Assembly (NCBI GenBank): GCA_028532915.1
Contig: JAQQAI010000037.1
Location: 1 to 52,054 of the forward strand
Length of the DNA stretch: 52,054 nucleotides
Reading direction: 5' to 3'
Source of the DNA: Sphaerochaetaceae bacterium
GTDB lineage: Bacteria > Spirochaetota > Spirochaetia > Sphaerochaetales > Sphaerochaetaceae
Notes under the pieces: model-generated
Seen by the model: the letters and a program-made list of their open reading frames with translations, nothing else
The model's database searches: none
What the model was told of the DNA's origin: nothing
Shown: in pieces, positions 4,876-50,406 of the stretch
Numbering within the stretch: the stretch's first letter is position 1
Layout of the letters: every line of letters begins with the position of its first letter
Translations under genes and position numbers: made by a program

Positions 4876-4961
4876 GATCCTGTCGTTGACAGGGTGTGAA
4901 AACTGAATCTATGTCTGCAGGACGGAGAATCCTGCAGACCAGAATAATAAAAGGAGGAGCG

Positions 4962-12697: not shown

Positions 12698-12736
12698 ACG
12701 TACTCCTCATGATTGTTTGGAATTCTTCAATGTTCA

Positions 12737-14236: not shown

Positions 14237-14258
14237 TATATTAACTCCAATGAATCTC

Positions 14259-14726
14259 TTACCGTAGGAAGATCGGTAACGGAAGAGCAGTGTTCAGCAT
14301 CAGAGTGAACACCACATACAGCAGTACGACAATACCAAGGGCCGTCAAGATTTTTTCCTTTCTATTTGTGATCCCGTAAATGCTCATGAAAATGTAGGTG
14401 AACATAAACGAGGAGAAGATAAAACCCAGAAGGTAGGTGCTTATACAGAACAGAACGGAAACTCCCATGACGATGTAGACGATCTTATGTTCATGCGATG
14501 AAAGATCGATTTTCTTCTCCCTGATATGTCTGCTGAAAAAGCTTTCAATCAGAAGCAGAACAGAAAGGAAGATCAGTATCATGCCCAGCATGGACGGCCA
14601 GAAGCCGGAGCCGGGGTCTCCGGTGCCGAGATCTACCGGGAAGTTTCGGGACAGAAGGATGAACGAGATCCCGAGCAGAGTAAAAACAGCTGAAACGACG
14701 ACGTTCCACCAGCACATAGATTTCAT
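14259..14726 (-). CDS. Tripartite tricarboxylate transporter, small membrane subunit (TctB family)
   Basis: Small membrane partner of TctA, with four predicted hydrophobic helices: one at residues 8-27, one around 40-62, and two between 85 and 150. The typical GSGFWPSMLGMILIFLSVLL segment lies between helix 1 and helix 2. The length of 155 aa is normal for TctB. It sits between the TctC and TctA genes on the same strand. AGGAGTACCT ahead of ATG 14726 is a good ribosome site. Confidence 0.88.
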   Translation of the reverse strand: MKSMCWWNVVVSAVFTLLGISFILLSRNFPVDLGTGDPGSGFWPSMLGMILIFLSVLLLIESFFSRHIREKKIDLSSHEHKIVYIVMGVSVLFCISTYLLGFIFSSFMFTYIFMSIYGITNRKEKILTALGIVVLLYVVFTLMLNTALPLPIFLR

Positions 14727-14745
14727 AGGTACTCCTCAGAAAACC

Positions 14746-14767
14746 CGGCATGAAAACTTTCATGCCG
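14746..14767 (-). other. Intercistronic hairpin behind the TctC gene
   Basis: CGGCATGAAA (14746-14755) and TTTCATGCCG (14758-14767) pair perfectly over up to 10 bp. The hairpin follows the receptor gene and precedes the TctB ribosome site, as at the other transport operons in this window. Confidence 0.7.
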
Positions 14768-14784
14768 AGTAGTAACTTCATAGA

Positions 14785-15744: not shown

Positions 15745-15770
15745 ATCAAGTCTCCTTTGTATTTTTTTTA

Positions 15771-16826
15771 TCAGATTCTATTCTGATAATCATTATCGAT
15801 TTCAAATTCCCAGAACGCTATACGTTCTCTCTTGTGGGAATAAGAGATGAAAATCCTGTTTCCGCGATGAGTTATCGCGGGGTAGGAGAATTCTCCATCT
15901 CCGGTATCTAGAGTTCTGATGGTCTTCCATGTCTTTCCGTTGTCTTCTGATACGGCCACAGAGAGAGGAGATCTTTCACCCCAGTTTTTTTTCACAGGAT
16001 TGAAGACCAAAAGCAGAAGACCGTTGTCTATTTTGACGAGATCTATTCCGCTATTATTGTTGGGAAGATCTGTCCGGTATGCATATGACCATGTCTTCCC
16101 GAAATCTTCGGAATCACTTCTGTAGATATTTCCTTCCGAAGAACGCAGGAGCATATGAACGTGCCCAGATTCAGATTCCCACAGGGTCGGCTGGATCACT
16201 CCCCGACCGTAAAAAGACTGCTCACTTACGGGAATACGTTTCTGAGATTCAGTCACCTTTACCTGATTTTCATCGTAGATGAGATCTTTGATACTCACGA
16301 GAGAACTTTTTCTCCAGGTTCGTCCTTCATCCCTGCTGAGATCAACAAAAGCATGCCAGATTCCGTTTTCTTTCGAAGCCGGCGCTGCGATATCTCCGTT
16401 GGATAACCGTATCGGCTTGTTCCTTACCGGTCCCCGGCCTCCATTATCTTCAGGAACTAGAATCTGTGAAGCAGAGAAAGTCTTCCCTCCGTCCTCTGAT
16501 ATACAGTAATAAGTCTGCCATTCATTGATCTTTTTTCCCACTTTGTAGAAAAGTATCACCTGTTCATCAGAAAGAGAGAAAAGAACCGGATTCCAATGAG
16601 GTTGATCTATATGATCTTCGATAGCAGTGATTGAGGACCATTTCCCCCTTTCTTTTCTTGTATGGTAGATCCTTACATCCTTACTTCCTTCTGCTGAACC
16701 AGAGAACCATGCAACGATGACTGAACCATCTGTAAGGCACAGATTTGTAGAAGCATGGACGAACTGTGTTCCATTAGGTCTTTCAATAAATTCTTTTCGT
16801 TCCATCAGTATAAGAGGTTTTTTCAT
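15771..16826 (-). CDS. BNR/Asp-box (sialidase-like) six-bladed propeller protein, cytoplasmic
   Basis: Sialidase-superfamily beta-propeller of the BNR_2 type. Four Asp-boxes (S-x-D-x-G-x-T-F/W) stand at residues 110-117, 164-171, 239-246 and 293-300. A G-P-V-R-N-K-P-I-R segment near 132-140 and W/FSGSAEGS near 40-47 match exo-sialidase-like proteins of this group. It has no signal peptide, so unlike secreted sialidases it should work inside the cell, on something the TctCBA system brings in. It is the first gene of the operon, with its own promoter (16886-16913) and a palindromic site at 16859-16881 downstream of iclR. Together with the DapA-family aldolase it suggests release and cleavage of a sialic-acid-like or other ulosonic acid. 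A non-sialic substrate remains fully possible. Confidence 0.82.
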   Translation of the reverse strand: MKKPLILMERKEFIERPNGTQFVHASTNLCLTDGSVIVAWFSGSAEGSKDVRIYHTRKERGKWSSITAIEDHIDQPHWNPVLFSLSDEQVILFYKVGKKINEWQTYYCISEDGGKTFSASQILVPEDNGGRGPVRNKPIRLSNGDIAAPASKENGIWHAFVDLSRDEGRTWRKSSLVSIKDLIYDENQVKVTESQKRIPVSEQSFYGRGVIQPTLWESESGHVHMLLRSSEGNIYRSDSEDFGKTWSYAYRTDLPNNNSGIDLVKIDNGLLLLVFNPVKKNWGERSPLSVAVSEDNGKTWKTIRTLDTGDGEFSYPAITHRGNRIFISYSHKRERIAFWEFEIDNDYQNRI

Positions 16827-16858
16827 AAGCAGTGTTCAGTTCCCTAAGTAGAGATTAT

Positions 16859-16881
16859 ATATATGAACTAAGTTCCTATAT
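16859..16881. promoter_or_regulatory. Palindromic operator candidate for the IclR regulator
   Basis: GAACT-A-AGTTC (16865-16875) is a perfect palindrome that extends to ATATA and TATAT outer arms with a single mismatch, giving 10 of 11 paired positions over 16859-16881. It covers about +1 to +20 of the promoter at 16886-16913, the classical position for a repressor. The adjacent iclR gene makes IclR the obvious candidate. Confidence 0.6.
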
Positions 16882-16885
16882 CGGT

Positions 16886-16913
16886 ATAATAACATGCATT
16901 TCCCATATGTCAA
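16886..16913 (-). promoter_or_regulatory. Promoter of the BNR-TctCBA-aldolase operon
   Basis: On the minus strand, TTGACA (16913-16908), a 16-bp spacer and TATTAT (16891-16886) lie between the iclR stop and the BNR gene. The operon can thus be transcribed separately from iclR. Confidence 0.6.
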
Positions 16914-16921
16914 CAGGATTT

Positions 16922-17686
16922 TTAATCTGAGTAGCCGAATATGTGGGAGATTTCTTTTGTTGCTGTGAGAACTTTTTCGGAGATCTCCTCGATCTTTTTT
17001 TCATTGATTTTCTGAGCAAGGCCGAGAACGCTCAGTGATGCGATGACTTTCCCGTCAGAATTAAAAATAGGGGAGGCTATAGAGCGGATCATCTCATCAT
17101 GTTCGGCATTGCTTACCGCATACCCGCGTTTTCGTATTGCATCAAGGTCTGCGAGAAGGGCGGACCTGTCACTTTTGGTGCTTTTTGTAAAAGATATGAG
17201 TTTCCTGTCGAGGATCTGTTCTATCTCTTCAGGCTGCAGAAAGGCGAGAATCGCCTTACCTGCTCCGGTAGCATACAGCGGGGCGGAGATACCTACTGAG
17301 ACAGGATATTTGAAATGATGCCAGTACCAGTTGCCCGATTCGACACTCTCTATGGGAAGGACCTCTCCGTGAGCCATGATCCCCAGATGCACCGTGAGAT
17401 CTAGAGATTCGTGAAGAGAATTCATGAAAGGTCTGCAGATATCCCTGATCTCCAGAGATGCTCTTGCAGCACTCCCGAGTTCAATGAGTCTGTTACCTAA
17501 CTTGTATCTGTTGGTCTCTTTCTCTTTTCTGATAAACTGTTCAGCTTCAAGAGTATGTAGGGTCTTTGACAGAGTACTTTTCGGCAGCTCATAGAGTCTT
17601 ATCAGTTCATTGAAACTGAGAGACCCATGCTCTTCCAGAAGACTTAAGATCTTAGCCGCCTTGACGATCGAGTTCACTAATTCCAT
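16922..17686 (-). CDS. IclR-family transcriptional regulator
   Basis: Residues 5-65 form the IclR winged helix (VKAAKILSLLEEHGSLSFNE, LPKSTLSKTLHTLE). Residues 75-250 form the C-terminal effector domain, with GHxGIM-like VHLGIMAHGEVLPI, SAPLYATGAGKAILAF and the closing GYAVSNAEHDEMIRSIASPI and ASLSVLG motifs. The length of 254 aa is standard. These regulators sense small carboxylates or aromatic acids. The gene lies directly upstream of the BNR-TctCBA-aldolase operon on the same strand and has its own promoter at 17750-17778; the palindrome at 16859-16881 is its most likely target. The start is ATG 17686, with a weak AGAGGAA further upstream than usual. Confidence 0.93.
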   Translation of the reverse strand: MELVNSIVKAAKILSLLEEHGSLSFNELIRLYELPKSTLSKTLHTLEAEQFIRKEKETNRYKLGNRLIELGSAARASLEIRDICRPFMNSLHESLDLTVHLGIMAHGEVLPIESVESGNWYWHHFKYPVSVGISAPLYATGAGKAILAFLQPEEIEQILDRKLISFTKSTKSDRSALLADLDAIRKRGYAVSNAEHDEMIRSIASPIFNSDGKVIASLSVLGLAQKINEKKIEEISEKVLTATKEISHIFGYSD

Positions 17687-38088: not shown

Positions 38089-38736
38089 TTATAACCTCAA
38101 TAACCCCCAAACGCTTTCGAACGTCTGTGTAATACTTTTCAGGTGTGCGGTCACAGCAACCTCTGCAGCATCCTGATCATGGTTTTTCAATGCGTTATAA
38201 ATTGCCTGATGTTCTTTAAGGGAATCAGTCTTCCGTCCCGGAAGCAGGATTGTTCTGAGCTGAAGTCGTGCTATTCTGGTTTTTACCTGTTTTATCAGAA
38301 GCGGTACTGTCTTATTGCCTGCCGCCTCGTAGATCGTTTCATCAAAAAGGGTATTCTGGCGGGTATACTCTTCCAGATTATTTTCATCCAAAGCTGATTT
38401 AATTCCTTCCAGGCATTTTGCCAGCACTTGAAGTGATTCATCAGTAATATTGGCTGCAGCATATCTGATCAGCGCAGACTCCAATATTGTTCTGGCTGTC
38501 ATAGCATCAAGTGTCTCTTCCAAAGAAAGTGTCGCGACTTTGGCTCCTCTATAGGGTTCAATGACGACAAGACCTTCGTTCTGAAGCTGGTTGAGCGCGG
38601 CTCTGATATTTTGCCTGCCGACAGAGAGTTCTTGTGCAAGTTCCTGTTCGATCAGCCGTTGTGATGGAGCATAAGTTCCTTCAAGAATATTTTTTTTAAT
38701 GGTCTTATAAGGTGTATCTGATGATTTTCTGTTCAT
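38089..38736 (-). CDS. GntR-family regulator, FadR/FCD type
   Basis: Residues 5-70 are a GntR winged helix (YKTIKKNILEGTYAPSQRLI, VGRQNIRAALNQLQNEGLV). Residues 80-210 are an all-helical FCD ligand domain, with the metal/ligand-binding pattern spread over TLFDETIYEAAGN, LKEHQAIYNALKNHD and VTAHLKS. Such regulators usually bind organic acids. It is divergent from the dehydratase/TctCBA operon at 39268-45419, whose promoter region holds two FCD-type palindromes (39022-39033, 39070-39081); it is the likely repressor of that operon. The 215-aa length is normal. Confidence 0.92.
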   Translation of the reverse strand: MNRKSSDTPYKTIKKNILEGTYAPSQRLIEQELAQELSVGRQNIRAALNQLQNEGLVVIEPYRGAKVATLSLEETLDAMTARTILESALIRYAAANITDESLQVLAKCLEGIKSALDENNLEEYTRQNTLFDETIYEAAGNKTVPLLIKQVKTRIARLQLRTILLPGRKTDSLKEHQAIYNALKNHDQDAAEVAVTAHLKSITQTFESVWGLLRL

Positions 38737-39021: not shown

Positions 39022-39033
39022 TTTGTCAACAAA
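39022..39033. promoter_or_regulatory. FCD-type GntR operator, distal
   Basis: TTTGT-CA-ACAAA, a perfect 5-2-5 palindrome matching the TTGT-N2-ACAA pattern known for GntR/FCD regulators. It lies 48 bp upstream of a second copy at 39070. Confidence 0.55.
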
Positions 39034-39069: not shown

Positions 39070-39081
39070 ATTGTTGACAAT
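39070..39081. promoter_or_regulatory. FCD-type GntR operator overlapping the -35 box
   Basis: ATTGT-TG-ACAAT, a perfect 5-2-5 palindrome. It contains the -35 box of the promoter at 39074-39102, the position expected for a repressor. Confidence 0.6.
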
Positions 39082-39102
39082 ATGAAATACCGGGGTTACA
39101 CT
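39074..39102 (+). promoter_or_regulatory. Promoter of the dehydratase/TctCBA operon
   Basis: TTGACA (39074-39079), 17-bp spacer, TACACT (39097-39102). It leaves a leader of about 160 nt with a hairpin, CCGGCAAA (39221-39228) with TTTGCTGG (39233-39240), 27 nt ahead of the first start codon. Confidence 0.6.
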
Positions 39103-39267: not shown

Positions 39268-40167
39268 ATGGAAAATGTAATTGCTTTCATTGGCTTCGGA
39301 GAGGCTGCCTACAATATTTCAAAAGGACTCAAAGAAGAGGGGCTTAAATGTATCGGGGCATACGATGTGAAAACGAATGACCCTGATACCGGACATCTCA
39401 TCAGAGAACGTGCCGTTGAAACGGGAGTCACGTTGTATGATTCGCTGGAGAAAGCCTGCAGGTCTGCTAAACTCATTGCTTCATTGACCAGCGCAGGTGT
39501 TGCAGTGAAGGTTGCAAAATCGGTTCTTCCTTATTTAGAGGCCGGACAGACTTTCATAGATATGAATTCTGCAGCTCCTGATGTTAAAGAAGAGATCGAA
39601 GAGATCAACAGAAAGGATGGAGTTCTGGTGTGTGATGCAGCTGTCATGGGAACTGTGCCTCAGAACAGGCATAAGGTAAAGATGTTCCTTTCTGGTAGTG
39701 GTTCTCGTGTTTTCCATGATGCGATGATGGGGTACGGTATGAATCTGGAAGTCCTTGATGTTCCGATGGGCGGAGCCTCTGCCATCAAGATGTTCAAGAG
39801 TATCGTCATGAAGGGATTGCCTCAACTCATGTTCGAATCAATGACTTGCGCCCATAAATACGGAGTGCTGGATTCTCTTGTGAAATCTCTTAATGACAGT
39901 CTTCACGGAAAAACAATCGAACAACTATCTGACACATTCTTCGCGAGAACGATAATACATGCAAAAAGAAGAGCTGTAGAAATGGAAAATGTCATAGCGA
40001 CTGTCGAGAGTATCGGTATGGATGCCTCGATGGCTGCTGTAACGAAAATGAAATTGGAAAATCTTGAAAAGTCCGGTCTGAAAGACCTGATTGGTACTCG
40101 GACAGATATGGATTATAAAAGTGTTCTTGAATTAGTGAACCGGAAGGAGATGAAAGATGAGCAGTAA
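39268..40167 (+). CDS. NAD(P)-dependent beta-hydroxyacid dehydrogenase-like protein (DUF1932 type)
   Basis: An N-terminal Rossmann domain (IAFIGFGEAAYNISKGL) and 6-phosphogluconate/3-hydroxyisobutyrate dehydrogenase-like body (FIDMNSAAPDVKEEI, VMGTVPQNRHKVKM) are followed by a C-terminal helical domain of the DUF1932 kind, with the lysine-bearing GGASAIKMFKSIVMKGL near 170. Members of this group reduce or oxidise branched or substituted hydroxy acids. Here it opens an operon with an RraA-type aldolase and a class I dehydratase, so it probably produces or consumes a 2-oxo-4-hydroxy acid in that pathway. The start is ATG 39268 behind AGAGGTTTGAG. The end overlaps the next gene by 11 nt. The true substrate is unknown. 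Confidence 0.85.
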   Translation: MENVIAFIGFGEAAYNISKGLKEEGLKCIGAYDVKTNDPDTGHLIRERAVETGVTLYDSLEKACRSAKLIASLTSAGVAVKVAKSVLPYLEAGQTFIDMNSAAPDVKEEIEEINRKDGVLVCDAAVMGTVPQNRHKVKMFLSGSGSRVFHDAMMGYGMNLEVLDVPMGGASAIKMFKSIVMKGLPQLMFESMTCAHKYGVLDSLVKSLNDSLHGKTIEQLSDTFFARTIIHAKRRAVEMENVIATVESIGMDASMAAVTKMKLENLEKSGLKDLIGTRTDMDYKSVLELVNRKEMKDEQ

Positions 40168-40867
40168 AGATTATCGTGAGTTACCGCAATTGATTCCGCA
40201 GGATATCATTGACCGGTTCCGTCGGCTGAGTCCTGCGCAGCTGTGCGATGGGATGAAAGGGCTGGGAATTTTATCAGATGGCTGCATGGATAGTGAGATC
40301 ATGCCTGTCGACGAGAAAAAAGTGATGATAGGTACGGCCTGCACCGTCGATACAGAAGACGGAGATAACTTTCCAATACATGTAGCGCTGAGCCAGGGAA
40401 AACCCGGGTACGTGATGATTATTGCCGGAAAAGCACATAAAAATAGAGCCTATATGGGTGATCTGATGGGTGCGACAGCAGAAGCTGTGGGGCTGAATGG
40501 GATAGTTGTTGATGGATTTGTGCGGGATAAATTCGGATTGAGAGATTTAGAGGTTCCGATATATTCACGAGGATTCATGCAGAGAGGTCCTTCAAAGAAA
40601 GGTCCGGGAAAAATTAACACTGAAGTTTTCTGCGCGGGGGTCATAGTAAGACCGGGCGATCTTGTTGTCGGCGATTATGATGGAGTGACCGTAGTCCCGA
40701 GGGATATGATCGATGCTGTTCTCGAAAAAGCTGAAAAAAAAGACGCATATGAAGTCCAGAGAAGAAAGACGATTGGTGAATATGTCGATTGTGTCAAAAA
40801 AGGGAAAGAACCTCCCGAGATTGCTCCTGCATGGGTGAAAGACATGCTGAACAAGAGTGAGAATTAG
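40157..40867 (+). CDS. RraA-family aldolase/decarboxylase (HMG/CHA aldolase-like)
   Basis: A member of the RraA/MenG-like family, whose enzymatic branch cleaves 4-hydroxy-4-methyl-2-oxoglutarate or 4-carboxy-4-hydroxy-2-oxoadipate and decarboxylates oxaloacetate. The loop GDLMGATAEAVGLNGIVVDG followed by FVRDKFG shows the G-x20-R-D metal/substrate pattern of the aldolases, which true RNase E inhibitors need not keep. N-terminal SPAQLCDGMKG and C-terminal VRPGDLVVGDYDGVTVVPRD are typical. The 236-aa chain carries a longer C-terminus than the 160-aa RraA of E. coli. The metabolic operon supports the enzyme role and not RNA turnover. Confidence 0.88.
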   Translation: MSSKDYRELPQLIPQDIIDRFRRLSPAQLCDGMKGLGILSDGCMDSEIMPVDEKKVMIGTACTVDTEDGDNFPIHVALSQGKPGYVMIIAGKAHKNRAYMGDLMGATAEAVGLNGIVVDGFVRDKFGLRDLEVPIYSRGFMQRGPSKKGPGKINTEVFCAGVIVRPGDLVVGDYDGVTVVPRDMIDAVLEKAEKKDAYEVQRRKTIGEYVDCVKKGKEPPEIAPAWVKDMLNKSEN

Positions 40868-40881
40868 CAAGGAGCAGAAAT

Positions 40882-41391
40882 ATGAATACAAAACAATTGA
40901 CTACGCCGATAAGTTTTGCCGATCTGGAAAACCTGAAGGCAGGTGATCCTGTTGAAATTTCAGGGACTATCTACGTGGGAAGAGATGCTGTGATTCCTCA
41001 GGTTCTTCAGGCTGTGAGAGAAGGCAGATTGAAAGAGATGGGTATTGATCTGGAAGGTGGTGTAATCTTTCATTCGGCAGTCAGCAAGGCCGGTTTAGGC
41101 CCGACTTCCTCCAATAAAGTAGAGATCGAAGGGAATATGGCGGAACTTTCTGATGCAGGAATCAGATTACATCTCGGCAAAGGGGCATTATCGGACAAGA
41201 CTGTTCAGATTTTGAAAGAGAAAAGATCGATCTTTGTCGTCATTCCTCCGATATCTGCCTATCTCACGAAGAAAACACTGAAAAGAGAAGTAGCTGCATT
41301 CGAAAAGGAAGGAATGGAAGCCTTCTGGCGTCTTGAAGTCGACAGGTATCCGGGAATCGTTGCCATAGCACACGGTGAGACAATTTTTTAA
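40882..41391 (+). CDS. Class I fumarase/L-tartrate dehydratase-like beta subunit
   Basis: Matches the C-terminal (beta) domain of iron-sulfur fumarases and tartrate dehydratases: LKAGDPVEISGTIYVGRDAV, GGVIFHSAVSKAG, GPTSSNKVE and KGALSDKTVQIL. It is made as a separate 169-aa subunit. The order here is beta before alpha. AAGGAGCAG precedes ATG 40882. With the alpha subunit it should add or remove water at a hydroxy-dicarboxylate; see the alpha entry for limits on the substrate. Confidence 0.88.
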   Translation: MNTKQLTTPISFADLENLKAGDPVEISGTIYVGRDAVIPQVLQAVREGRLKEMGIDLEGGVIFHSAVSKAGLGPTSSNKVEIEGNMAELSDAGIRLHLGKGALSDKTVQILKEKRSIFVVIPPISAYLTKKTLKREVAAFEKEGMEAFWRLEVDRYPGIVAIAHGETIF

Positions 41392-41408
41392 CAAAAGGGG
41401 AAGATTAA

Positions 41409-42278
41409 ATGTCAATTTCTGTCAATGATATTAGAAAAGCCGCCAGTCAGGCCTTAGTTATCGGTAGCAGCACATTCCGTCCGGATCAGATTCGGGCTTA
41501 CGAAAGAGCTATAGAAAAGGAAACTGATGAAAAATCGAGATGGGTTCTTGAGAAGACATTGGAGAATGCTGCTATCAGTGAAAAAGATGTGAGCCCGTTG
41601 TGTGATGATACCGGTATTCCACATCCGTTTCTGGAAATCGGAAAGGATGCCCGATACGAAGGATCTGTATATGACCTGTTGAAAGCAGTGGAAGAGGGTG
41701 TCGCCGATGGGCTGAGAGAGCTTCCAGGAAGACCAATGGCAGTCAAGGGAGAAGGCCTCGAACGGATGGCACAGATCCACGGATTATATGAAGATTCAGG
41801 GAAACTCCTCGCAGCACCTGTGAATATCAGGAAGATCGATGGTTCCGAAATCAGAGTGACTGTCCTGATGCAGGGCGGCGGCCCTGAGATCAGATCCAAG
41901 ACATATCATGTATTTCATAAACATAAGGAAATGCAACTCATCGATACCGCAGTCGAATGGGCAAACGAGATGGTTGCTAAGCTTGGTTGTACTCCCTGCG
42001 TTCCCGCGATCGGAATCGGCCGAACTCATTATGAGGCTTCTTCGATGATGATCGAAGCGCAGAAAGAGGGTAACTTTGATATTCAGAGCGATATCGAAAA
42101 TTACATTACCGATAAGATCAATAAAAGCGATGTCGGACCTCTTGGCCTCGGTGGAGATGTCACGGCGCTTGGTACCTTTTTGAAGATAGGCGAGGCTCGC
42201 GGCAGCGGAGTGAGGATCTTATGTGTGAGACTCAGCTGCTGCTTTGAACCGAGAAAGCATACAGTTGTTCTGAGATAG
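41409..42278 (+). CDS. Class I fumarase/L-tartrate dehydratase-like alpha subunit
   Basis: Catalytic 4Fe-4S subunit of the two-subunit class I hydro-lyases. Likely cluster cysteines are in VSPLCDDTGIPHPF near residue 65, KLGCTPCVPAIGIGRTHYEA near 195-200 and LSCCFEPRKH near the end. MQGGGPEIRSKTY replaces the usual GGGGSENMS-type loop. Such enzymes are oxygen-labile and fit an anaerobe. The diverged substrate loop and the RraA and dehydrogenase neighbours argue for a hydroxy-acid other than plain malate/fumarate, for example tartrate or a methylated C5-C6 relative; this is inference. Confidence 0.87.
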   Translation: MSISVNDIRKAASQALVIGSSTFRPDQIRAYERAIEKETDEKSRWVLEKTLENAAISEKDVSPLCDDTGIPHPFLEIGKDARYEGSVYDLLKAVEEGVADGLRELPGRPMAVKGEGLERMAQIHGLYEDSGKLLAAPVNIRKIDGSEIRVTVLMQGGGPEIRSKTYHVFHKHKEMQLIDTAVEWANEMVAKLGCTPCVPAIGIGRTHYEASSMMIEAQKEGNFDIQSDIENYITDKINKSDVGPLGLGGDVTALGTFLKIGEARGSGVRILCVRLSCCFEPRKHTVVLR

Positions 42279-42440
42279 AAGAAAAGAAAAATCAAAGTCA
42301 AAGATTATTGGTTAAAGAACTGGCTGTTATGTTGTATTTTGAATAGTAATCAGCCTTTTCAGAATAGTGTATGGAGTCTTTTGGTTCTGATGCCGATACC
42401 CTTCTGATTTTGAGTAGATAATAAAAAAGGAGAAGACAAG

Positions 42441-43418
42441 ATGAAAAAAAGATTATTGTCGATGATGATGGTTCTATTGGTGTTAACTATGGGGCTTTAT
42501 GCGAACGGACAGGACGAGACTAATGCTGAAGATAGCTCGAACTGGCCTGAAAAGGAAATCTTTATCAATGTACATGCGGGCTCTGGTAACCTTGATACAG
42601 CAATGCGACTGATCGCACCATTCATTTCTGAAAGACTGGGTGTAGATGTTCTCGTTCAGAATAAACCGGGCGGATCACAGGCGGTATCTCAGGTCGCGAC
42701 TCAGGGAGAGCCTGCTGATGGTTACACTTTTCAGACTTTTACAGGAAGCACCAGTTTCTCAATGGCATCCGGAGCGATCCCTTTCGGTCCTGAAGATTGG
42801 TCTGTAGTCAGTTCAATCCAGAGAGAACCTGCGAGTATCGCGGTATTAGCAGACAGTCCGTTGAAAACCATCGATGATCTGGTTGCTGCTCTGAAAGAAG
42901 ATCCCGACAGTTATATCATCGGAGGATATCAGAGTGCTTCGTTCATGAGATATGTGTACTATAAACTGCAGGAGCTTACGGGATTCAATGCCAAATGGAT
43001 TCCGATCGATACCACCGACGAAGTTGCAACAGCTTTGCTCGGTAAACATATTGATGTAGCTATAATGACACCAAGTACTACCGGAACAGCTGTTTCTCGG
43101 GGGGATGTGAGACTCTTGGGAATTGCAACAGCTGAAAGATCTCCAAACTATCCTGACGTTCCGACTTTCAGAGAACAAGGAATAGATATCGTTGAGATCC
43201 TGTGGAGAGGACTCGGTGTAAAAAAAGGTACCGACAGTGCGATCATTCAGAAAATGGCGGATACAATCTCTGAGATTACTCAGACCGAAGAGTGGAAGGA
43301 GATTCAGGAGAAATATAATCAGGAAAACGATCCTGTTTCCCCTCAGCAGCTTGACGAACGTCTTGCAAACGAAGTAGCAGGCCGAACAAAATTCCTTCAG
43401 GATCTTGGGCTGAAATAA
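42441..43418 (+). CDS. Tripartite tricarboxylate transporter substrate-binding protein (TctC family), second system
   Basis: Exported receptor with a signal peptide ending LYANGQDE. The TctC pattern is present: KEIFINVHAGSGNLDTAMRL, VLVQNKPGGSQAVSQVATQ, TFQTFTGSTSFS and LGIATAERSPNYPDVPTFRE. It is only distantly similar to the TctC at 14785-15744, so a different ligand is expected. AAAAAGGAGAAGACAAG precedes ATG 42441. A 162-nt gap separates it from the dehydratase genes, and a strong hairpin at 43423-43474 follows. Confidence 0.93.
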   Translation: MKKRLLSMMMVLLVLTMGLYANGQDETNAEDSSNWPEKEIFINVHAGSGNLDTAMRLIAPFISERLGVDVLVQNKPGGSQAVSQVATQGEPADGYTFQTFTGSTSFSMASGAIPFGPEDWSVVSSIQREPASIAVLADSPLKTIDDLVAALKEDPDSYIIGGYQSASFMRYVYYKLQELTGFNAKWIPIDTTDEVATALLGKHIDVAIMTPSTTGTAVSRGDVRLLGIATAERSPNYPDVPTFREQGIDIVEILWRGLGVKKGTDSAIIQKMADTISEITQTEEWKEIQEKYNQENDPVSPQQLDERLANEVAGRTKFLQDLGLK

Positions 43419-43422
43419 AAGT

Positions 43423-43474
43423 ATGTTTTCGGATTCGTAGGTGATGTCAGCCTGCGAATCCAGATAGAAAACAT
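43423..43474 (+). other. Intercistronic hairpin behind the second TctC gene
   Basis: ATGTTTTC (43423-43430) with GAAAACAT (43467-43474), and GGATTCG (43431-43437) with CGAATCC (43455-43461), plus AGG with CCT inside, make a long stem with one asymmetric bulge. It begins 5 nt behind the stop and ends before the TctB ribosome site. Confidence 0.75.
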
Positions 43475-43493
43475 TTCTGTTAAAGGTGGTTGT

Positions 43494-43913
43494 ATGAAAA
43501 AAGGTAATGTGATCTTCGGATCGATAGTATTACTGTTTATGTGTTATTTGCTCTTTCTTACCTATCAGATTCCAAAGCCGATGAGCGAATACGAAATGGG
43601 AGCAGGGTACGTTCCGACCGTCTATCTGTATACTGCGATCTTTTTGCTGGTAAGTATATTGATAAAGGAATTCCTGAAGAAGGATGATTCGCCGGTAAAT
43701 GTGAGTAGACGAGCATTGTTCTTCTTCCTCATCATTGTAGCGTATGTCATCGGGATCAGGTTCATCGGTTACTATATTCCGACTTTCGTTGTTCTGACGG
43801 CATTGCTCTTTTTACTTGGAGAACGACGCAAAAAGATATTATTAACAGTTCCAATAGGATTTATAGTGTTCATTTTTGTGGTCTTTCAGAAGATTCTTCA
43901 CGTACGATTTTAG
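43494..43913 (+). CDS. Tripartite tricarboxylate transporter, small membrane subunit (TctB family), second system
   Basis: A 139-aa protein with four hydrophobic helices (residues 5-23, 43-62, 76-95 and 100-135) and the TctB-type EYEMGAGYVPTVYLYTAIFL segment after helix 1. GGTGGTTGT ahead of ATG 43494 is a modest ribosome site. It lies between the receptor gene and tctA, as normal. Confidence 0.85.
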   Translation: MKKGNVIFGSIVLLFMCYLLFLTYQIPKPMSEYEMGAGYVPTVYLYTAIFLLVSILIKEFLKKDDSPVNVSRRALFFFLIIVAYVIGIRFIGYYIPTFVVLTALLFLLGERRKKILLTVPIGFIVFIFVVFQKILHVRF

Positions 43914-43928
43914 ATGAAGAGGTAACAT

Positions 43929-45419
43929 ATGGATGTGATTATTGAAGTTTTGGGGATGGTTCTAACCCTTAAGACATTGTTGATAGTGATTTTGGGAACT
44001 GGCGTGGGTATCATGATCGGGGCACTTCCGGGGTTGGGTCCTACTGTCGGAACGACACTGATGATTCCCCTTACATACAGTATGGAACCTGTGACGGCTA
44101 TCATACTACTTGTGGCGATATACATGGCAGCAGAATATGGCGGATCGATAACGGCTATTCTTCTTAATACTCCCGGAACTACCGCGGCTACAGCCACATT
44201 GCTTGATGGATATCCTCTGACAAAGAAAGGAATGCCGGGGAAAGCTCTGGGAGCCTCCATAACCGCGTCGACAATCGGAGGTATCATCAGTACCTTCATT
44301 CTTCTGTTTCTTGCAATTCCTTTGATGAAAGTGGCAATACAGTTTGGCCCTATGGAGTTCTTTGCGCTAGGGCTGTTCGGGATTTCTCTCGTGGCATCCT
44401 TGAGCAATAAGTCTATTCTCAAAGGTATCCTTGCCGGTGTTCTCGGATTGATCATAGCAACTGTAGGAATTGATCCTCTTACCGGTCATGTCCGTTATAC
44501 ATTCGGAAGTTATTACCTTCTTGAAGGTATTTCTCTCATGCCTGCTCTGGTAGGTCTATATGCACTTTCAGAAGTTATTTTCATGTTTGAAACACAGACT
44601 AAGAATGAAAAGAGTAAAAAGATATCTTCCAATCAGTTTATAACATTCAAAGAATTTAAAGATATGCTCCCTGTAATTTTTTCAGGCAGTTTCATCGGAG
44701 CCGGAACAGGAATCATTCCCGGAGCCGGCGGAAGTATCGGAGGATGGCTTTCATATCAGCAGGCAAAAAGATTTGCAAAAGACCGGGACCAATACGGGCA
44801 AGGAGCATTGTCAGGAGTCGCCGCATCGGAATCCGCGAACAACGCCGTTGTCGGCGGAGCTCTGATTCCCCTTCTGGCTCTCGGAATCCCGGGATCTCCA
44901 ACTACAGCAGTGTTACTTGGAGCATTGATGCTTCATGGAGTTTCCCCCGGTCCTGATATCATGACAAATGATGCCCCGCTGTTCTACGGGATAGTTATCG
45001 GATTGTTCGTGACATGCATCGTAATGTTTTTCATCGGTAATCTTCTCAGGAATTTCTGGGTGAAGATGATCAATATTCCCTCCAGAATCATCGCACCGAT
45101 CGTTTTGTGCATCTCGATCATCGGAGCATTTTCTGTAAGAAATCTGATGTTTGATGTTTTTGTTGCGGTAGGATTTGGAATTCTAGGCTATTTTATGAGA
45201 AAATTTGATTATCCTCTAGCCCCAACTGTGTTAGCACTAGTACTAGGGAAGATGATGGAATCGAATCTAAGACGTTCTCTTCTTATTTCTAATGGAGATT
45301 GGGGTATCTTTCTGACAAAGCCGATAAGTGTCATTTTCCTGATTCTGGCTTTCATCTCATTTTTCTCACCCATCATACGAAATTATTTGGAAAGTCGCAA
45401 AATGAGAAGCAACATTTAA
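43929..45419 (+). CDS. Tripartite tricarboxylate transporter, large membrane subunit (TctA family), second system
   Basis: A TctA permease of 496 aa with about 12 membrane helices. Signature segments: GVGIMIGALPGLGPTVGTTL near 25, YGGSITAILLNTPGTTAATA near 75, GAGTGIIPGAGGSIGGWLSY near 260 and ESANNAVVGGALIPLLALG near 300. It is 15 nt behind TctB and is the last gene of the GntR-controlled operon. The hairpin at 45459-45480 lies behind it. Confidence 0.95.
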   Translation: MDVIIEVLGMVLTLKTLLIVILGTGVGIMIGALPGLGPTVGTTLMIPLTYSMEPVTAIILLVAIYMAAEYGGSITAILLNTPGTTAATATLLDGYPLTKKGMPGKALGASITASTIGGIISTFILLFLAIPLMKVAIQFGPMEFFALGLFGISLVASLSNKSILKGILAGVLGLIIATVGIDPLTGHVRYTFGSYYLLEGISLMPALVGLYALSEVIFMFETQTKNEKSKKISSNQFITFKEFKDMLPVIFSGSFIGAGTGIIPGAGGSIGGWLSYQQAKRFAKDRDQYGQGALSGVAASESANNAVVGGALIPLLALGIPGSPTTAVLLGALMLHGVSPGPDIMTNDAPLFYGIVIGLFVTCIVMFFIGNLLRNFWVKMINIPSRIIAPIVLCISIIGAFSVRNLMFDVFVAVGFGILGYFMRKFDYPLAPTVLALVLGKMMESNLRRSLLISNGDWGIFLTKPISVIFLILAFISFFSPIIRNYLESRKMRSNI

Positions 45420-45458
45420 AACTCGTGGTTTAACCGAATATCAATAACAAAACTAATT

Positions 45459-45480
45459 GGGGCGGCCTTCTGGCCGTCTC
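45459..45480. terminator. Convergent terminator between the TctCBA operon and the AraC gene
   Basis: A 9-bp stem, 45459-45467 with 45472-45480 (core CGGCC-TTCT-GGCCG, two G-T wobbles), lies between the tctA stop and the araC-type gene stop. T-rich sequence follows on the plus side. Confidence 0.6.
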
Positions 45481-45520
45481 ATTCTATTGTAGATTCAGAA
45501 TTCTGAGAAAATAGAAATTT

Positions 45521-46420
45521 TCAGGTATGTCTATCAGTATTCCGGAGATAGGCATCGCGGTATTCTGATGGGGTGTAGTTGGTGAAGTTCTTGAAAACAG
45601 TGCAGAAATAGTTGCTTGAAGAGAATCCGGCATCCAAGGCGATCTGGGTGATCGCTTCTGAGGTCTGTTCGAGTAGCTCCTTCGCATATTCGAGTTTCTT
45701 GAACGTAATGTAGTTGGCCGGAGGGATACCGACGACCTCTTTGAATTTGATTTTGAACCTAGATAAAGAATATCCCGATATCGCTGATAACTCTTTCAAC
45801 TGTAGATTCTCACTGTAATGTTCGTTGATGTGATGGATCACCCGCTTGATATGAGGATCGTTTATCCGCTTTACCTCATTTATGATGGGGATGAAATCAG
45901 GTATCTTGAAAAGGAAACTGCTCAGATACTGTACTCCAAGCATACGGGATGAAACCGTATTCTCACAAATATTCTCAAAGGCCAAACGGAGAAACTGCTT
46001 CTCGTTCAAAGAGAATTTAAGATGCCTGTAATTCAATGAAGTGAGCATCTGGTACAAGGCCAGCGAATATTCTCTGTTCAGACCGAGAAGTTCATCCTTT
46101 TGGGTAACATCGATCTGAAAGCCGAAGAATGAACAGGGACTTAAATCATTGCTGCTCGTATAATGGGGTTCATAAGGCAAAGAGAAGAACATCTCATTTC
46201 CGGTAATGATGTAGGTCTTCTCCTCCAAATGGAAGACTCTTCTTCCTTTGGTTAGACAATGGAATTCAATGATATTGGGATGATGATGGAGAGGTACCGG
46301 ACTAGATGCTCTCGGGAGATTCCAGTGCGCGAAATTTCTGAGTCCTTCAATCTTGTGCATATCGTAGGTTATTGTCTTGTTGTACTTTTCCCAACAGAAT
46401 TTATCAACTATTTCCAGCAA
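45521..46420 (-). CDS. AraC-family transcriptional regulator
   Basis: Residues 25-130 form a cupin-like sensor (PVPLHHHPNIIEFHCLTKGR and the beta strands after it). The C-terminal 100 residues carry two helix-turn-helix units: LQLKELSAISGYSLSRFKIK and ITQIALDAGFSSSNYFCTVF, followed by NYTPSEYR. The start is TTG 46420, with AAAGGAG 6 nt upstream and no alternative nearby. It is divergent from the aldolase-TRAP-glycosidase operon, so it most likely activates that operon in response to the sugar derivative. The operon's -10 (46489-46494) has only a weak -35, as expected for an activator-dependent promoter. Confidence 0.93.
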   Translation of the reverse strand: MLEIVDKFCWEKYNKTITYDMHKIEGLRNFAHWNLPRASSPVPLHHHPNIIEFHCLTKGRRVFHLEEKTYIITGNEMFFSLPYEPHYTSSNDLSPCSFFGFQIDVTQKDELLGLNREYSLALYQMLTSLNYRHLKFSLNEKQFLRLAFENICENTVSSRMLGVQYLSSFLFKIPDFIPIINEVKRINDPHIKRVIHHINEHYSENLQLKELSAISGYSLSRFKIKFKEVVGIPPANYITFKKLEYAKELLEQTSEAITQIALDAGFSSSNYFCTVFKNFTNYTPSEYRDAYLRNTDRHT

Positions 46421-46488
46421 TACAGGCTCCTTTTATGTTCACAAAAGTATTAAGCATTATTCTGAATGTTTTTACCACGCCCCACAAT

Positions 46489-46531
46489 TATACTATAGAA
46501 AAATTGAATCTCAAATATATTGAGAATCAAT
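46489..46531 (+). promoter_or_regulatory. -10 box and inverted repeat ahead of the aldolase-TRAP operon
   Basis: TATACT (46489-46494) is a good -10 without a proper -35. Just downstream, ATTGAATCTCAA (46503-46514) and TTGAGAATCAAT (46520-46531) pair at 11 of 12 positions around a 5-nt centre, either an AraC-type or repressor site or a leader hairpin. Confidence 0.45.
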
Positions 46532-46546
46532 AAACAAAGGATGAAA

Positions 46547-47476
46547 ATGATGACTAAATCAATTTCCAATGGCGTCTGGCCGGTGATGATCACTCCATAC
46601 ACCGAAGACAACAGAATCGATTATGACGGTGTTCTGGAACTGCTCAAGTGGTATGCGCATCAAAAGGTTTCCGGAATCTTCGCTGTGTGTCAATCCAGTG
46701 AGATGTTCTATCTTTCCAGAGAAGAACGTTACAATCTAGCTTCATTTATCATCAGTAACAGACCGAAAGGTCTCGGTATCATCGTTTCCGGACACGTGGC
46801 GCAAACGATAGAAGAACAGATTGATGAGGCTCAAAGCATCATAGATGCCGGCGCTGATTCATATGTGTTTATCACCAATCAGTTCGCAAAAAAGAGTGAG
46901 AGCGATGATGTCGCGAAGAAGAGTATTGAAAAACTCATTTCAAATATCGATGCCGACAGTTTCGGCCTTTATGAATGTCCTTACCCCTATAAACGGCTCA
47001 TGTCTCCCGAACTGCTTTCCTGGTGTGCAAAGACCGGACGATTTGCCTTTCTGAAAGATACATGCTGCAGCCTGAACGGTCTGAAATCGAAACTTCGTGC
47101 AGTAGAGGGGACACCGTTGAAAATCTTCAACGCAAATGCCGCCACCTTGCTCGAATCTCTCAAGTTGGGAGTTTCCGGCTACAGCGGTGTGATGGCGAAT
47201 TTTCACGCCGACCTGTACAGTTGGTTGTGCACCCATTATGAGAAAGATCCAAAGAAGGCTCAGGTTGTACAGAACCTGCTTGGTTTTGCGAGTGTCATCG
47301 AATGCCAGTTTTATCCGGTAAACGCAAAATATCATCTCGGCCTGGAAGGGTTGAACATCAATCTGTTCAGCAGGGTCCAGGATTTCAGCCAGTTCTCTAC
47401 CAATCGCCAGATGGAAGTCGAACAGATGAAGAATATCGTGGACCTTATGAGGCTGCAGATAGGAATTTGGAACTAA
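46547..47476 (+). CDS. DapA/N-acetylneuraminate lyase-family aldolase (paralogue 2)
   Basis: Schiff-base aldolase, clearly paralogous to the protein of 11774-12697. Shared blocks include GVWPVM, TEDN, CQSSE at 48-52, ECPYPYKR (143-150), the Schiff-base lysine K170 in FAFLKDTCC, NANAATLLESLKLG-type and SGYSGVMAN, and FYPVNAKYHL. Catalytic tyrosine Y142 and lysine are both present. The altered CQSSE in place of the usual GxTGE/S is kept in both copies, so they form one functional subfamily. ATG 46547 (or 46550) is best spaced from AAAGG; TTG 46520 and ATG 46541 are less likely. It opens the operon with DctPQM and a GH106-like glycosidase. Its substrate is probably a 2-oxo-3-deoxy sugar acid or ulosonic acid. 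Confidence 0.88.
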   Translation: MMTKSISNGVWPVMITPYTEDNRIDYDGVLELLKWYAHQKVSGIFAVCQSSEMFYLSREERYNLASFIISNRPKGLGIIVSGHVAQTIEEQIDEAQSIIDAGADSYVFITNQFAKKSESDDVAKKSIEKLISNIDADSFGLYECPYPYKRLMSPELLSWCAKTGRFAFLKDTCCSLNGLKSKLRAVEGTPLKIFNANAATLLESLKLGVSGYSGVMANFHADLYSWLCTHYEKDPKKAQVVQNLLGFASVIECQFYPVNAKYHLGLEGLNINLFSRVQDFSQFSTNRQMEVEQMKNIVDLMRLQIGIWN

Positions 47477-47508
47477 CCCCGTCTATCGGGAGAAAAAAGG
47501 AGTCATAT

Positions 47509-48519
47509 ATGAAAAAGAAAATGTTGATGGTTATGCTGGTGCTTCTGGTCACAGGCATGATGGTTTGGGCTGCCGGAGAAAAAGAATCTGATGGTACAAA
47601 ACCTGTAGAACTGATTTTCACTTCGGTCTCGGTTCCAGGGGATTCTCATACCGAAGCGATGTATGTATTTGCAGATAAGGTCGAAGAACTAACCGGAGGA
47701 TCTGTTGAAGTCAAGGTATACGACAGCGGGACTCTCTTTACTCAGGAGAATGAATATGATGCTCTGGTGAATGGTGATGCAGATATGGCATATATCTCAT
47801 TTCCGACACTTGCAACACAGATTCCTTCATTCAGTATGTTCGGATCAGGGTATTTTTTCAGTTCTTATGATCATATGACCTCGGTACTCAACGGGGATAT
47901 CGCAGAAGAACATATCTGGCCGAAGGTTCGTGACCTTGGTATGCAGCCTCTCGGCAGTATGTACCTCGGTTCCCGTGTCATCAATACCAAAGACAAGAAG
48001 ATCGATAGTTATGAAGATATGGAGGGAGTTCTCCTTCGTATGCCAGGGTCAGAATCATGGCTCTTCCTCGGTGAGGCTCTCGGTGCCAATCCGACACCCC
48101 TGTCTTTCAGTGAGTTGTATACCGCTTTACAGACCGGTGCTGTCGGCGGACAGGACAATCCTCTTCCTACAGTCGAAAAGGCTAAATTCTACGAAGTAAC
48201 AAAATATCTGGCGATCACGAATCACGTCATTGATTCGATCATGCCTTGTGTGAATCTGGACAAGTGGAACTCCATGACTGCAGAACAGCAGGAAGCTGTG
48301 AGTGAAGCCATGGACTATGCAATTGCGTTCAACGATGAAGAAAGAATCGCAAGTGAGAACAGCCTCGTGGAATTCTTTGAAGGTGAAGGTATGGTCGTAA
48401 CATACCCCGATATCGCTGAATTCAGGGAGAACGTTCAGGCTGCATATGCCGGCAACTCGGCAATGACCTCCACATGGGACATGGATCTGTATAAGACTGT
48501 TCAGGAAATGGCAAAATAA
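47509..48519 (+). CDS. TRAP transporter substrate-binding protein (DctP family)
   Basis: Exported receptor (336 aa) with a signal peptide ending MMVWAAGEKE. The DctP/SiaP-like pattern is visible: SVPGDSHTEAMYVFADKVEE, NGDADMAYISFPTLA, the carboxylate-binding arginine in GVLLRMPGSESWLFLGEALG near 170, and TGAVGGQDNPLPTVEKAKFY near 215. The arginine implies an organic acid ligand, such as a sugar acid. ATG 47509 follows AAAAAAGGAG; the open frame upstream is out of register with the aldolase gene and not used. A strong hairpin at 48545-48578 follows. Confidence 0.94.
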   Translation: MKKKMLMVMLVLLVTGMMVWAAGEKESDGTKPVELIFTSVSVPGDSHTEAMYVFADKVEELTGGSVEVKVYDSGTLFTQENEYDALVNGDADMAYISFPTLATQIPSFSMFGSGYFFSSYDHMTSVLNGDIAEEHIWPKVRDLGMQPLGSMYLGSRVINTKDKKIDSYEDMEGVLLRMPGSESWLFLGEALGANPTPLSFSELYTALQTGAVGGQDNPLPTVEKAKFYEVTKYLAITNHVIDSIMPCVNLDKWNSMTAEQQEAVSEAMDYAIAFNDEERIASENSLVEFFEGEGMVVTYPDIAEFRENVQAAYAGNSAMTSTWDMDLYKTVQEMAK

Positions 48520-48544
48520 TGATGCTGTAAGAATTAGAAAAAGG

Positions 48545-48578
48545 TATGGATGGCTCTTTTTGATAAAGAGCCTCCATA
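48545..48578 (+). other. Intercistronic hairpin behind the DctP gene
   Basis: TATGGA (48545-48550) with TCCATA (48573-48578) and GGCTCTTT (48552-48559) with AAAGAGCC (48565-48572) give a 14-bp stem with one bulged T and a 5-nt loop. There is no T-run, so it probably partially terminates or stabilises. Confidence 0.75.
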
Positions 48579-48619
48579 TTCAATATCTGGCAACCAAAGC
48601 CGGGCGATAGGATTACAAA

Positions 48620-49129
48620 ATGAATTCAATTAAGAAGATGGGCCGAGGTGTGATGTATTTGTTAGGTACAATCATACCTAATCTTACGTTTTTGTTGATA
48701 TTTGTCACTTTTATGATAACGATCATCTCAAGGTATCTGCTGAGGACTCCGGTCCCTTGGGCGTACGAGATAAGTATTCTTGCCTATATGTGGACCATGT
48801 TCTTCGGCGTGGGCAAAGCAATGCAGAATGAAGAACATGTGGTCTTCGCTCTTGTCTATGACAGCGTCGGACCGAAGCTCAAAATAGTTTTTGAGATACT
48901 CAACAGTCTGATTCTGGTCATCCTGCTCGTTATTGTTTTTCTTCCATCAGTGAACTCTCTCTTGTCCAAGAAAATGGTCACAGGAGTTCTAAAGCTTCCA
49001 TATAAGGTCGTCTTCGCCCCCCTTATCTATATGTTCGCAGAGATGCTTATAAGAAGTGTTATGGTAAGCGTAAAGCATCTGAAAAACCTGAGAAACACCC
49101 TGGAGAAAAAAGGCGGTGATCGAAAATGA
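48620..49129 (+). CDS. TRAP transporter small permease (DctQ family)
   Basis: A 169-aa membrane protein with four hydrophobic helices (residues 12-35, 48-65, 90-110 and 130-148). The DctQ motif PVPWAYEISILAYMWTMFFG lies between helix 1 and 2. It overlaps the DctM gene by 4 nt (ATGA). The DctP gene is 100 nt upstream, the gap being filled by the hairpin. Confidence 0.9.
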   Translation: MNSIKKMGRGVMYLLGTIIPNLTFLLIFVTFMITIISRYLLRTPVPWAYEISILAYMWTMFFGVGKAMQNEEHVVFALVYDSVGPKLKIVFEILNSLILVILLVIVFLPSVNSLLSKKMVTGVLKLPYKVVFAPLIYMFAEMLIRSVMVSVKHLKNLRNTLEKKGGDRK

Positions 49130-50406
49130 ATATTGTACTTATCCTGTTTCTGGTCCTTGCTATATGTTTTATCATCAAGATGCCTGTCTCTATGGCAATG
49201 CTCTCCGCTTCAATCACCTATTTTATTCTGAGCGGAAGATCCTTGGGTCAGGTGTTCACGGTCATGTCGGGTAATATGTTTTCGAACTATACCATGCTCG
49301 CCGCTCCTCTTTTCATCTTCATGGCGAACGTGATGAACGAGGGAGAGATAACCGATAAATTGTTCAAGTTCTGCAACGGTCTGTTTGGTCGGATGAGAGG
49401 AGGGACTGCCCAGGTTAATGTTGCGGCATCTCTGATCTTCTCCGGTATGACCGGCTCTGCGATCGCAGATGCTTCCGGAATCGGACTGATGGAGATCGAT
49501 CAGATGAAGAAAGAAGGATACGACCCCTCTTTCAGCTGTGCCCTGACTGCCGCATCCGCCACAGTCGGTCCGATCTTTCCTCCCAGTATCCCTATGGTTA
49601 TATATGCGATGCTGTCAGGGGCCTCCGTAGGTAAACTCTTCATGGGAGGAATGATCCCTGGAATCATTCTCTCTGTGCTTCTGATGATATATGTTGCGAT
49701 CATCTCATTCAAACGCAAATACCCTCGCGGGGAGATCATGGCCATCAGACAGTTCATTAAAGTCTCCATCAGTGCCGTTCCGGCCCTGTTTACTGTTGTT
49801 CTGCTTCTCGGGGGTATCTATCTGGGTGTCGTAACCCCTACCGAGGCGGGAGCTTTGGCCTCTGCCTATGCAATTCTGATTTCGATTCTCCTCTATCGGA
49901 ATCTTGGTCCTGTGAAATTCTGGAGGATTATCAAAAAGAGCGCATCCAACACCGCGACTCTGGCGCTGCTTGCAGGAACATCAATGCTTTTTTCCTATAT
50001 CATATCCCTGGAACAGGTCCCGAGAGCCATCGCATCGGTAGTTATGGGAATAACAGAGAATAAATACATCTTCCTGATGGTTGTAAACGTGGTATTCCTT
50101 CTCCTCGGATGTGTTCTCGATGTTTCGACCATCCAATTGGTCTTTGTTCCCATGGTGCTGCCGCTGGTGACGGCCTTCGGTATCGATCTGGTCCATTTCG
50201 GAGTCATCATCTGTTTCAATATGATGATAGGGCTTTCCACTCCGCCGTTCGGAATGCTGCTGTTCATTGTTTCCGGGCTGGGAAAAGCTAAGATCAGAGG
50301 TGTCATACGGGAGATTATTCCGATGATTCTTGTTATGCTGATCGTCCTGATCCTGATCACCTATATTCCGAATATCGTCATGTATATTCCGAATAATTTT
50401 ATGTAG
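49126..50406 (+). CDS. TRAP transporter large permease (DctM family)
   Basis: A 426-aa permease with about 12 membrane helices and family motifs: GNMFSNYTMLAAPLFIFMAN near 45, VAASLIFSGMTGSAIADASG near 105, SAASATVGPIFPPSIPMVIY near 150 (plus-charge-free loop), and FGVIICFNMMIGLSTPPFGM near 365. It forms the sodium-coupled translocation pathway together with DctQ and DctP. The glycosidase gene starts 12 nt after its stop. Confidence 0.95.
   Translation: MNIVLILFLVLAICFIIKMPVSMAMLSASITYFILSGRSLGQVFTVMSGNMFSNYTMLAAPLFIFMANVMNEGEITDKLFKFCNGLFGRMRGGTAQVNVAASLIFSGMTGSAIADASGIGLMEIDQMKKEGYDPSFSCALTAASATVGPIFPPSIPMVIYAMLSGASVGKLFMGGMIPGIILSVLLMIYVAIISFKRKYPRGEIMAIRQFIKVSISAVPALFTVVLLLGGIYLGVVTPTEAGALASAYAILISILLYRNLGPVKFWRIIKKSASNTATLALLAGTSMLFSYIISLEQVPRAIASVVMGITENKYIFLMVVNVVFLLLGCVLDVSTIQLVFVPMVLPLVTAFGIDLVHFGVIICFNMMIGLSTPPFGMLLFIVSGLGKAKIRGVIREIIPMILVMLIVLILITYIPNIVMYIPNNFM

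Follow-up and report, generated by a model that had tools for sequence, protein, structure and literature searches.

Operon organization

The window, i.e., the whole stretch of 52,054 nucleotides that was analyzed (contig JAQQAI010000037.1 of the Sphaerochaetaceae bacterium assembly GCA_028532915.1), carries eight neighboring genes that comprise a compact seven-gene operon, which may degrade a citrate-like acid, and a divergent regulator gene. On the plus strand, the operon encodes a DUF1932 NAD(P)-dependent dehydrogenase (39268-40167; Pfam NAD_binding_2 and DUF1932), an RraA-fold class II pyruvate aldolase (40157-40867; Pfam RraA-like, PDB 3NOJ), the beta (40882-41391; Pfam Fumerase_C) and alpha (41409-42278; Pfam Fumerase) subunits of a class I fumarase-type hydratase, and all three subunits of a tripartite tricarboxylate transporter (TTT), namely, the periplasmic receptor TctC (42441-43418; Pfam TctC and PDB relatives), the small membrane subunit TctB (43494-43913; Pfam TctB), and the large membrane subunit TctA (43929-45419; Pfam TctA). 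The regulator is of the GntR/FCD type and lies on the minus strand (38089-38736; Pfam GntR and FCD). The DUF1932 and RraA genes overlap by 11 nucleotides (nt), the gaps between RraA and beta, beta and alpha, and TctB and TctA are 14, 17, and 15 nt, and TctA is followed by a terminator-like hairpin on the plus strand (45458-45481; 10 pairs, seven of them G-C, with a T-rich tail). An earlier note on this DNA had described positions 39268-45419 as encoding DUF1932, RraA, a class I dehydratase, and TctCBA. All seven open reading frames (ORFs) lie exactly where it had put them, and the Pfam profile search gave the same family in every case, but the description left out the divergent GntR/FCD gene, two palindromes, and a link to the lower pathway of aromatic ring cleavage.

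The 531-base gap between the GntR and DUF1932 genes contains one palindrome twice, TTGTCAACAA at 39023-39032 and TTGTTGACAA at 39071-39080. These operator-like sites overlie the -35 elements of two divergent promoter-like sites, the former of the leftward one and the latter of the rightward one (39074-39102). Exact copies in the 52-kb window were found only at 39023 and 39071, and at least two TTGTNNACAA sites occurred in the gap in 1 of 5,000 dinucleotide shuffles. The same 10-mer is also present upstream of a related module (L126, position 3781), the GntR protein of which is 45% identical to that of the window. The GntR protein probably controls the operon through the TTGTTGACAA sites.

The class I fumarase-type hydratase

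The alpha/beta pair passes the Pfam cut-offs (Fumerase, 165.7 bits; Fumerase_C, 67.4 bits), retains Cys at three ligand positions in alpha, and has the GRD, GPT, and GKG motifs in beta, as FumA, FumD, MesAB, and TtdAB do. However, it misses the NCBIfam subfamily cut-offs (ttdA_fumA, 97.0 versus 100.65; ttdB_fumA, 71.8 versus 145.15), and its beta gene comes first. To collect relatives, one genome per species was scanned and the best 80 of 322 loci were kept; the alpha alignment holds 74 sequences of the clade, some loci being absent through missed or overlapping ORF calls. In the tree, the alpha clade is set apart from FumA, TtdA, and the two other copies of the window genome. CQDTG, which is found in four of four reference enzymes, occurs in none of the 74 sequences, all of which have CDDTG instead; GGGP is present in 74/74, GGGP.IR in 71/74 (GGGPEIR in the window), and NTGTN in 0/74. 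In beta, the clade motif GPT[ST]SNK (GPTSSNK in the window) stands where the references have GPTT..R. The beta-before-alpha order and the GGGPEIRSKTY-type loop, to which the earlier note had drawn attention, are real and mark a clade rather than the window alone.

The Q of CQDTG and the R of the beta motif are residues that we take to touch the substrate, as in the Leishmania fumarase structure. Since both are altered in the clade, it is probably the substrate rather than the mechanism that has changed. The window genome encodes two further fumarase-family pairs, one of them (C4) 55%/69% identical to TtdA/TtdB of E. coli and the other (C94) a canonical fumarase-like pair with alpha first, and the window pair is only 23%/30% identical to TtdA/TtdB. 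Because these pairs exist, the window pair is probably neither the tartrate dehydratase nor the sole fumarase of the organism. Together with the motifs, the paralogs argue against both identities, which agrees with the earlier expectation that the enzyme was not a plain fumarase or tartrate dehydratase.

The window alpha subunit groups with that of the locus L006 with a support of 1.0, and support for the sister group is weak (0.73). Further members of this subclade were not found in 392 genomes of the phylum except for the window and one 50% relative; the window was alone among 139 genomes of its family, and so was the genome of L006 among 20 of its own.

Other members of the larger clade occupy different surroundings. 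In L072 and L039, the alpha/beta genes adjoin methylaspartate ammonia-lyase, which suggests a mesaconase in the clade. In L013, L015, L017, L019, L020, L028, L040, and L077, they adjoin genes for FAD fumarate-reductase-like and iron-sulfur subunits, and several of these loci also carry PrpD, citrate-synthase-fold, and SucCD-like coenzyme A (CoA) ligase genes, perhaps for the oxidation of tricarballylate or aconitate. The sister clade, from Clostridia, rumen, and other anaerobe genomes, has a recurring, biosynthetic-looking cluster (L026, L071, L009, and others of L007-L085) of PrpD, an aldo-keto reductase or other dehydrogenase, a phosphonopyruvate-decarboxylase-like enzyme (Ppd), a PF15617 C-C bond lyase, a 300-amino-acid protein matched by neither Pfam nor NCBIfam, beta, alpha, and then ATP-grasp, DegT, and glycosyltransferase genes. 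The 300-amino-acid protein is present in 46 loci. For L071:7305-8207 and its homologs, a TIM-barrel-like fold is predicted (pLDDT 84.8), the best Foldseek matches being class II aldolases, PrpB/PEP-mutase, and carboxyltransferase barrels, all weak (TM about 0.5). The phosphonate and secondary-metabolite readings that Ppd, PrpD, and ATP-grasp would invite for the sister clade were not extended to the window, since its neighbors are different.

The RraA-fold aldolase

The closest solved structure to the window RraA protein is 3NOJ, the 4-hydroxy-4-methyl-2-oxoglutarate (HMG)/4-carboxy-4-hydroxy-2-oxoadipate (CHA) aldolase of Pseudomonas putida F1. N71, H75, D102, R123, D124, G144, K147, and E199 are retained at identical numbers, whereas T145 is replaced by P, R195 is replaced by K, and R40 is unmatched. 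R123, D124, E199, and D102, the last of which is presumably one of the catalytic or metal residues of the HMG/CHA aldolase, are all present, which makes the protein a candidate CHA (or HMG) aldolase. According to PMC5065237, R123 is essential, D124 and E199 are metal ligands, CHA is cleaved to pyruvate and oxaloacetate and HMG to two pyruvates, and the class also decarboxylates oxaloacetate.

Gene neighborhoods of DUF1932

The window DUF1932 protein scores above the cut-offs of PF09130 (52.9 versus 25 bits) and NAD_binding_2 (40.2 versus 21 bits), and its PDB relatives, 4ezb and 3qsg, are both uncharacterized. We surveyed 27 DUF1932 loci, consisting of all eight DUF1932 matches from the genome searches and 19 plasmid regions, which were picked nonrandomly, for spread and annotation, among 40 listed of 118 matching plasmid records; some are kin (two from Pantoea, two from Priestia, and several from Rhizobiaceae). 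Two loci without DUF1932, L092 and L094, are outside this count. By a uniform tblastn count, RraA/LigK is present in 21/27 loci, homologs of the hydratases GalB or LigJ in 11, the tautomerase of 4-oxalomesaconate (OMA) in 10 (one a fragment), and LigA/LigB in five. At least one of RraA, GalB, LigJ, and tautomerase was found in 23/27, the loci with none being L106, L113, L129, and L130. Among the eight unchosen loci from the genome searches, six have RraA. A control set of 79 alpha-clade loci, which spans 1.27 Mb and does not include L006, gave no match to RraA, LigK, GalB, LigJ, tautomerase, or DUF1932.

DUF1932 genes recur among the lower protocatechuate-4,5/gallate genes on named plasmids. 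The order on a plasmid of Rhizobium daejeonense (L099) is PIG-L (a GalB-type hydratase), CHA aldolase, DUF1932, TctA, TctC, TctB, and OMA tautomerase, and that on a Diaphorobacter plasmid is LigJ-like, LigK, DUF1932, LigI-like, LigA, and LigB; a Sphingopyxis plasmid carries the same set as the latter around a LysR gene, and Pantoea plasmids have galB, CHA aldolase, tautomerase, and DUF1932 together. The window operon suggests a function for DUF1932, a dehydrogenase family without an assigned role. The ligJA1B1C operon of Novosphingobium, which is activated by LigR, contains an NAD(P)-dependent oxidoreductase gene, SARO_RS14280, for which PMC12710314 reports no known function; we match it to DUF1932 from the order of the genes in L102 and not from sequence. 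In strain SYK-6, ligJ is SLG_12520 and ligR is SLG_12540, and no row for the gene between them was seen in the accessible part of Table 1 of PMC12997858. In Vibrio natriegens, deletion of ligK abolishes growth on protocatechuate, as reported in PMC11951559. Literature searches listed nothing relevant on DUF1932 and nothing pertinent on DUF1932, RraA, and fumarase together or on OMA with fumarase.

Two features of the Klebsiella material are recorded here. In L108, positions 4430-5190 hold a galB-like stretch with a stop that is unannotated beside annotated neighbors, intact copies being present elsewhere. The record CP125156.1 is filed as a plasmid, but its size of 5.37 Mb indicates that it is probably a chromosome.

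Exchange of the hydratase among related operons

Three arrangements are seen within one clade of DUF1932 proteins, which share 46-57% identity with that of the window. In the window and L006, DUF1932 and RraA stand with alpha/beta; in L126, from the window's own class, there is a GalB homolog (5CGZ, E value of 1.5e-61, next best 1e-8) with TctCBA; and in L125, a CitMHS citrate-type permease accompanies DUF1932 and RraA. L127, which is more distant, combines TctCBA, DUF1932, and RraA with two LeuCD pairs of the aconitase/homoaconitase type. L006 has the same order as the window, DUF1932-RraA-beta-alpha-TctC-...-TctA, with the four enzyme genes 56-75% identical, and its operon ends with the oxaloacetate decarboxylase alpha subunit (OadA; 824 versus a cut-off of 718 bits), as would be expected if oxaloacetate is a product. 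The genome of L006 has a second RraA gene beside LeuCD and a MatC/CitMHS permease. The transporters of the relatives L125 (CitMHS) and L092 (MatC/CitMHS) are both of the citrate type. In G687, RraA lies directly downstream of a GalB homolog, and the fourth close RraA match, L095 (G638), is without a recognized partner. PrpR-type activators accompany L006, L092, L125, and L127. A DUF6282 gene directly precedes the GalB homolog in L126 (3824-4780, by Pfam) and in L094 (14-829, by eye only).

The window operon itself contains no GalB (PIG-L) or LigJ (amidohydrolase) homolog. The LigB-type dioxygenase (PF02900) had no match in the window genome (G000; 97% complete) or in G275 and G329, and one match each in G417 and G392, within longer open frames (479 and 492 amino acids); the PrpF-type tautomerase (PF04303) had none in these five genomes. 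Compared with the known lower protocatechuate-4,5/gallate pathway (LigU/GalD, LigJ or GalB, and LigK/GalC), the window operon shares the RraA-fold aldolase with its catalytic residues, the DUF1932 companion, and the TTT transporter, which is also seen in L099. It differs in that ring-cleavage dioxygenase and tautomerase were not detected in its genome and in having a [4Fe-4S] pair of the class I fumarase type as its hydratase instead of a PIG-L protein or an amidohydrolase.

Proposed pathway and alternatives

We suggest, with a probability of roughly 55%, that the operon imports a citrate-like C7 tricarboxylate and degrades it via OMA/CHA-type intermediates to pyruvate and oxaloacetate, i.e., that it is a stand-alone, oxygen-independent form of the lower protocatechuate-4,5/gallate pathway. 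TctCBA would import a C7 hydroxy-tricarboxylate, probably 4-hydroxy-homoaconitate or 4-hydroxy-homocitrate; among the PDB relatives of TctC compared for specificity, no ligand was indicated. The DUF1932 dehydrogenase would oxidize the secondary (2-hydroxy) alcohol to the 2-oxo acid, giving OMA or CHA, the alpha/beta pair would hydrate OMA to CHA, whichever order oxidation and hydration may take, and RraA would split CHA into pyruvate and oxaloacetate by a retro-aldol reaction, with GntR as the putative regulator. If DUF1932 oxidizes the alcohol of the right isomer, a tautomerase is unnecessary, which fits the finding that none was detected in the five genomes. OMA is mesaconate with an oxalyl group on the methyl ("oxalo-mesaconate"), and CHA is the matching citramalate, so a mesaconase-type hydration of OMA would yield CHA. 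Hydration of mesaconate to (S)-citramalate is common among class I fumarases (PMC4682846), so that a class I enzyme whose pocket has been reshaped would need no new chemistry to hydrate OMA. We propose that the alpha/beta pair is a nonhomologous replacement for GalB/LigJ as OMA hydratase. The earlier note had considered a branched acid cut by an HMG/CHA-type aldolase in a route using all enzymes, and the retained aldolase residues and the OMA/CHA gene neighbors support this. Its label "dicarboxylate" fared less well, because the neighbors and swapped-in partners of the relatives are OMA/CHA enzymes and the transporters are of the citrate type, which makes a citrate-like tricarboxylate the likelier substrate.

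Several observations weigh against this pathway. The RraA protein is below the curated CHA-aldolase cut-offs (NF006731, 143.3 versus 179; TIGR02798, 130.9 versus 304.5), and we therefore call it CHA-aldolase-like and not an equivalog. Linkage of the alpha/beta pair to RraA is seen in only two genomes, those of the window and L006, L125 has DUF1932 and RraA without a hydratase, and 6 of the 27 DUF1932 loci are without RraA, including a nonribosomal peptide synthetase-like cluster (L130) and a phosphonate-type cluster (L113). The loci of the nearest alpha relatives (support of 0.73) encode PrpD, a citrate-synthase-fold protein, and CoA ligase, and the alpha/beta pair may therefore act on a different substituted malate. 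A literature search on the names of the proposed acid listed no natural source.

It is quite unlikely, in our view, that the alpha/beta pair acts on a citrate/aconitate-type acid as a separate step to which its position beside RraA is secondary; the PrpD, citrate-synthase-fold, and SucCD-like genes of the nearest sister loci point that way, but the gene order and sequence identity common to the window and L006 do not. The main rival, which we regard as unlikely, is a C6 version in which the branched acid has a methyl in place of the carboxymethyl group and follows the HMG route. Acceptance of both substrates by the HMG/CHA aldolase (PMC5065237), the mesaconate hydration common among class I fumarases (PMC4682846), and the two sister loci beside methylaspartate ammonia-lyase favor it, whereas GalB, LigJ, and OMA tautomerase, the swap-in partners of the relatives, are OMA/CHA enzymes, and a tricarboxylate and oxaloacetate are suggested by the presence of citrate-type transporters and OadA.

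The tartrate route proposed earlier, in which alpha/beta dehydrates tartrate to oxaloacetate and RraA decarboxylates the latter, agrees with the family annotation and with the oxaloacetate decarboxylation known for the aldolase class (PMC5065237). We consider it very improbable, since the genome has a true TtdAB elsewhere, the window pair is distant from TtdAB and lacks the CQDTG of all four reference enzymes, and the dehydrogenase would be left unexplained. A different role for DUF1932, for which the chances seem modest, would be repair: in aromatic degraders, it would reoxidize a wrongly reduced keto group of OMA or CHA, and the window organism would scavenge the excreted product. In L100, L102, L104, and L116, DUF1932 indeed lies inside lig/gal clusters that already encode enzymes for the known lower steps. 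However, the sequence analysis used does not separate this role from the C7 tricarboxylate pathway, with which it overlaps, and the two are not mutually exclusive.

As a broader and more tentative proposal, the DUF1932 proteins could be 4-hydroxy-homoaconitate/4-hydroxy-homocitrate dehydrogenases and the CDDTG class I enzyme a further, nonhomologous OMA hydratase, which with the CHA aldolase would make an anaerobic route on tricarboxylates from aerobic aromatic degraders. In that case, the wider CDDTG clade would be a hydratase family for 2-substituted malates. The window module also suggests that organisms of anoxic habitats may draw carbon from citrate-like C7 acids and that several protein families, PIG-L, amidohydrolase, and possibly the aconitase and class I fumarase types, serve for one and the same hydration step. 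Because the module pares the pathway down to a transporter, DUF1932, a hydratase, and an aldolase, the role of DUF1932/SARO_RS14280 is testable with three purified enzymes.

Other features of the window

No Rfam families or tRNAs were found in the window. Positions 11774-17686 on the minus strand encode IclR, a BNR_2 sialidase-like protein, TctC, TctB, TctA, and a DHDPS/NanA-like protein, a second TTT operon that is possibly for a sialic-acid-like substrate. At 45521-50406, an AraC gene on the minus strand faces a diverged DHDPS-like gene, DctP, a small permease, and DctM, which form a third carboxylate-type transport operon.

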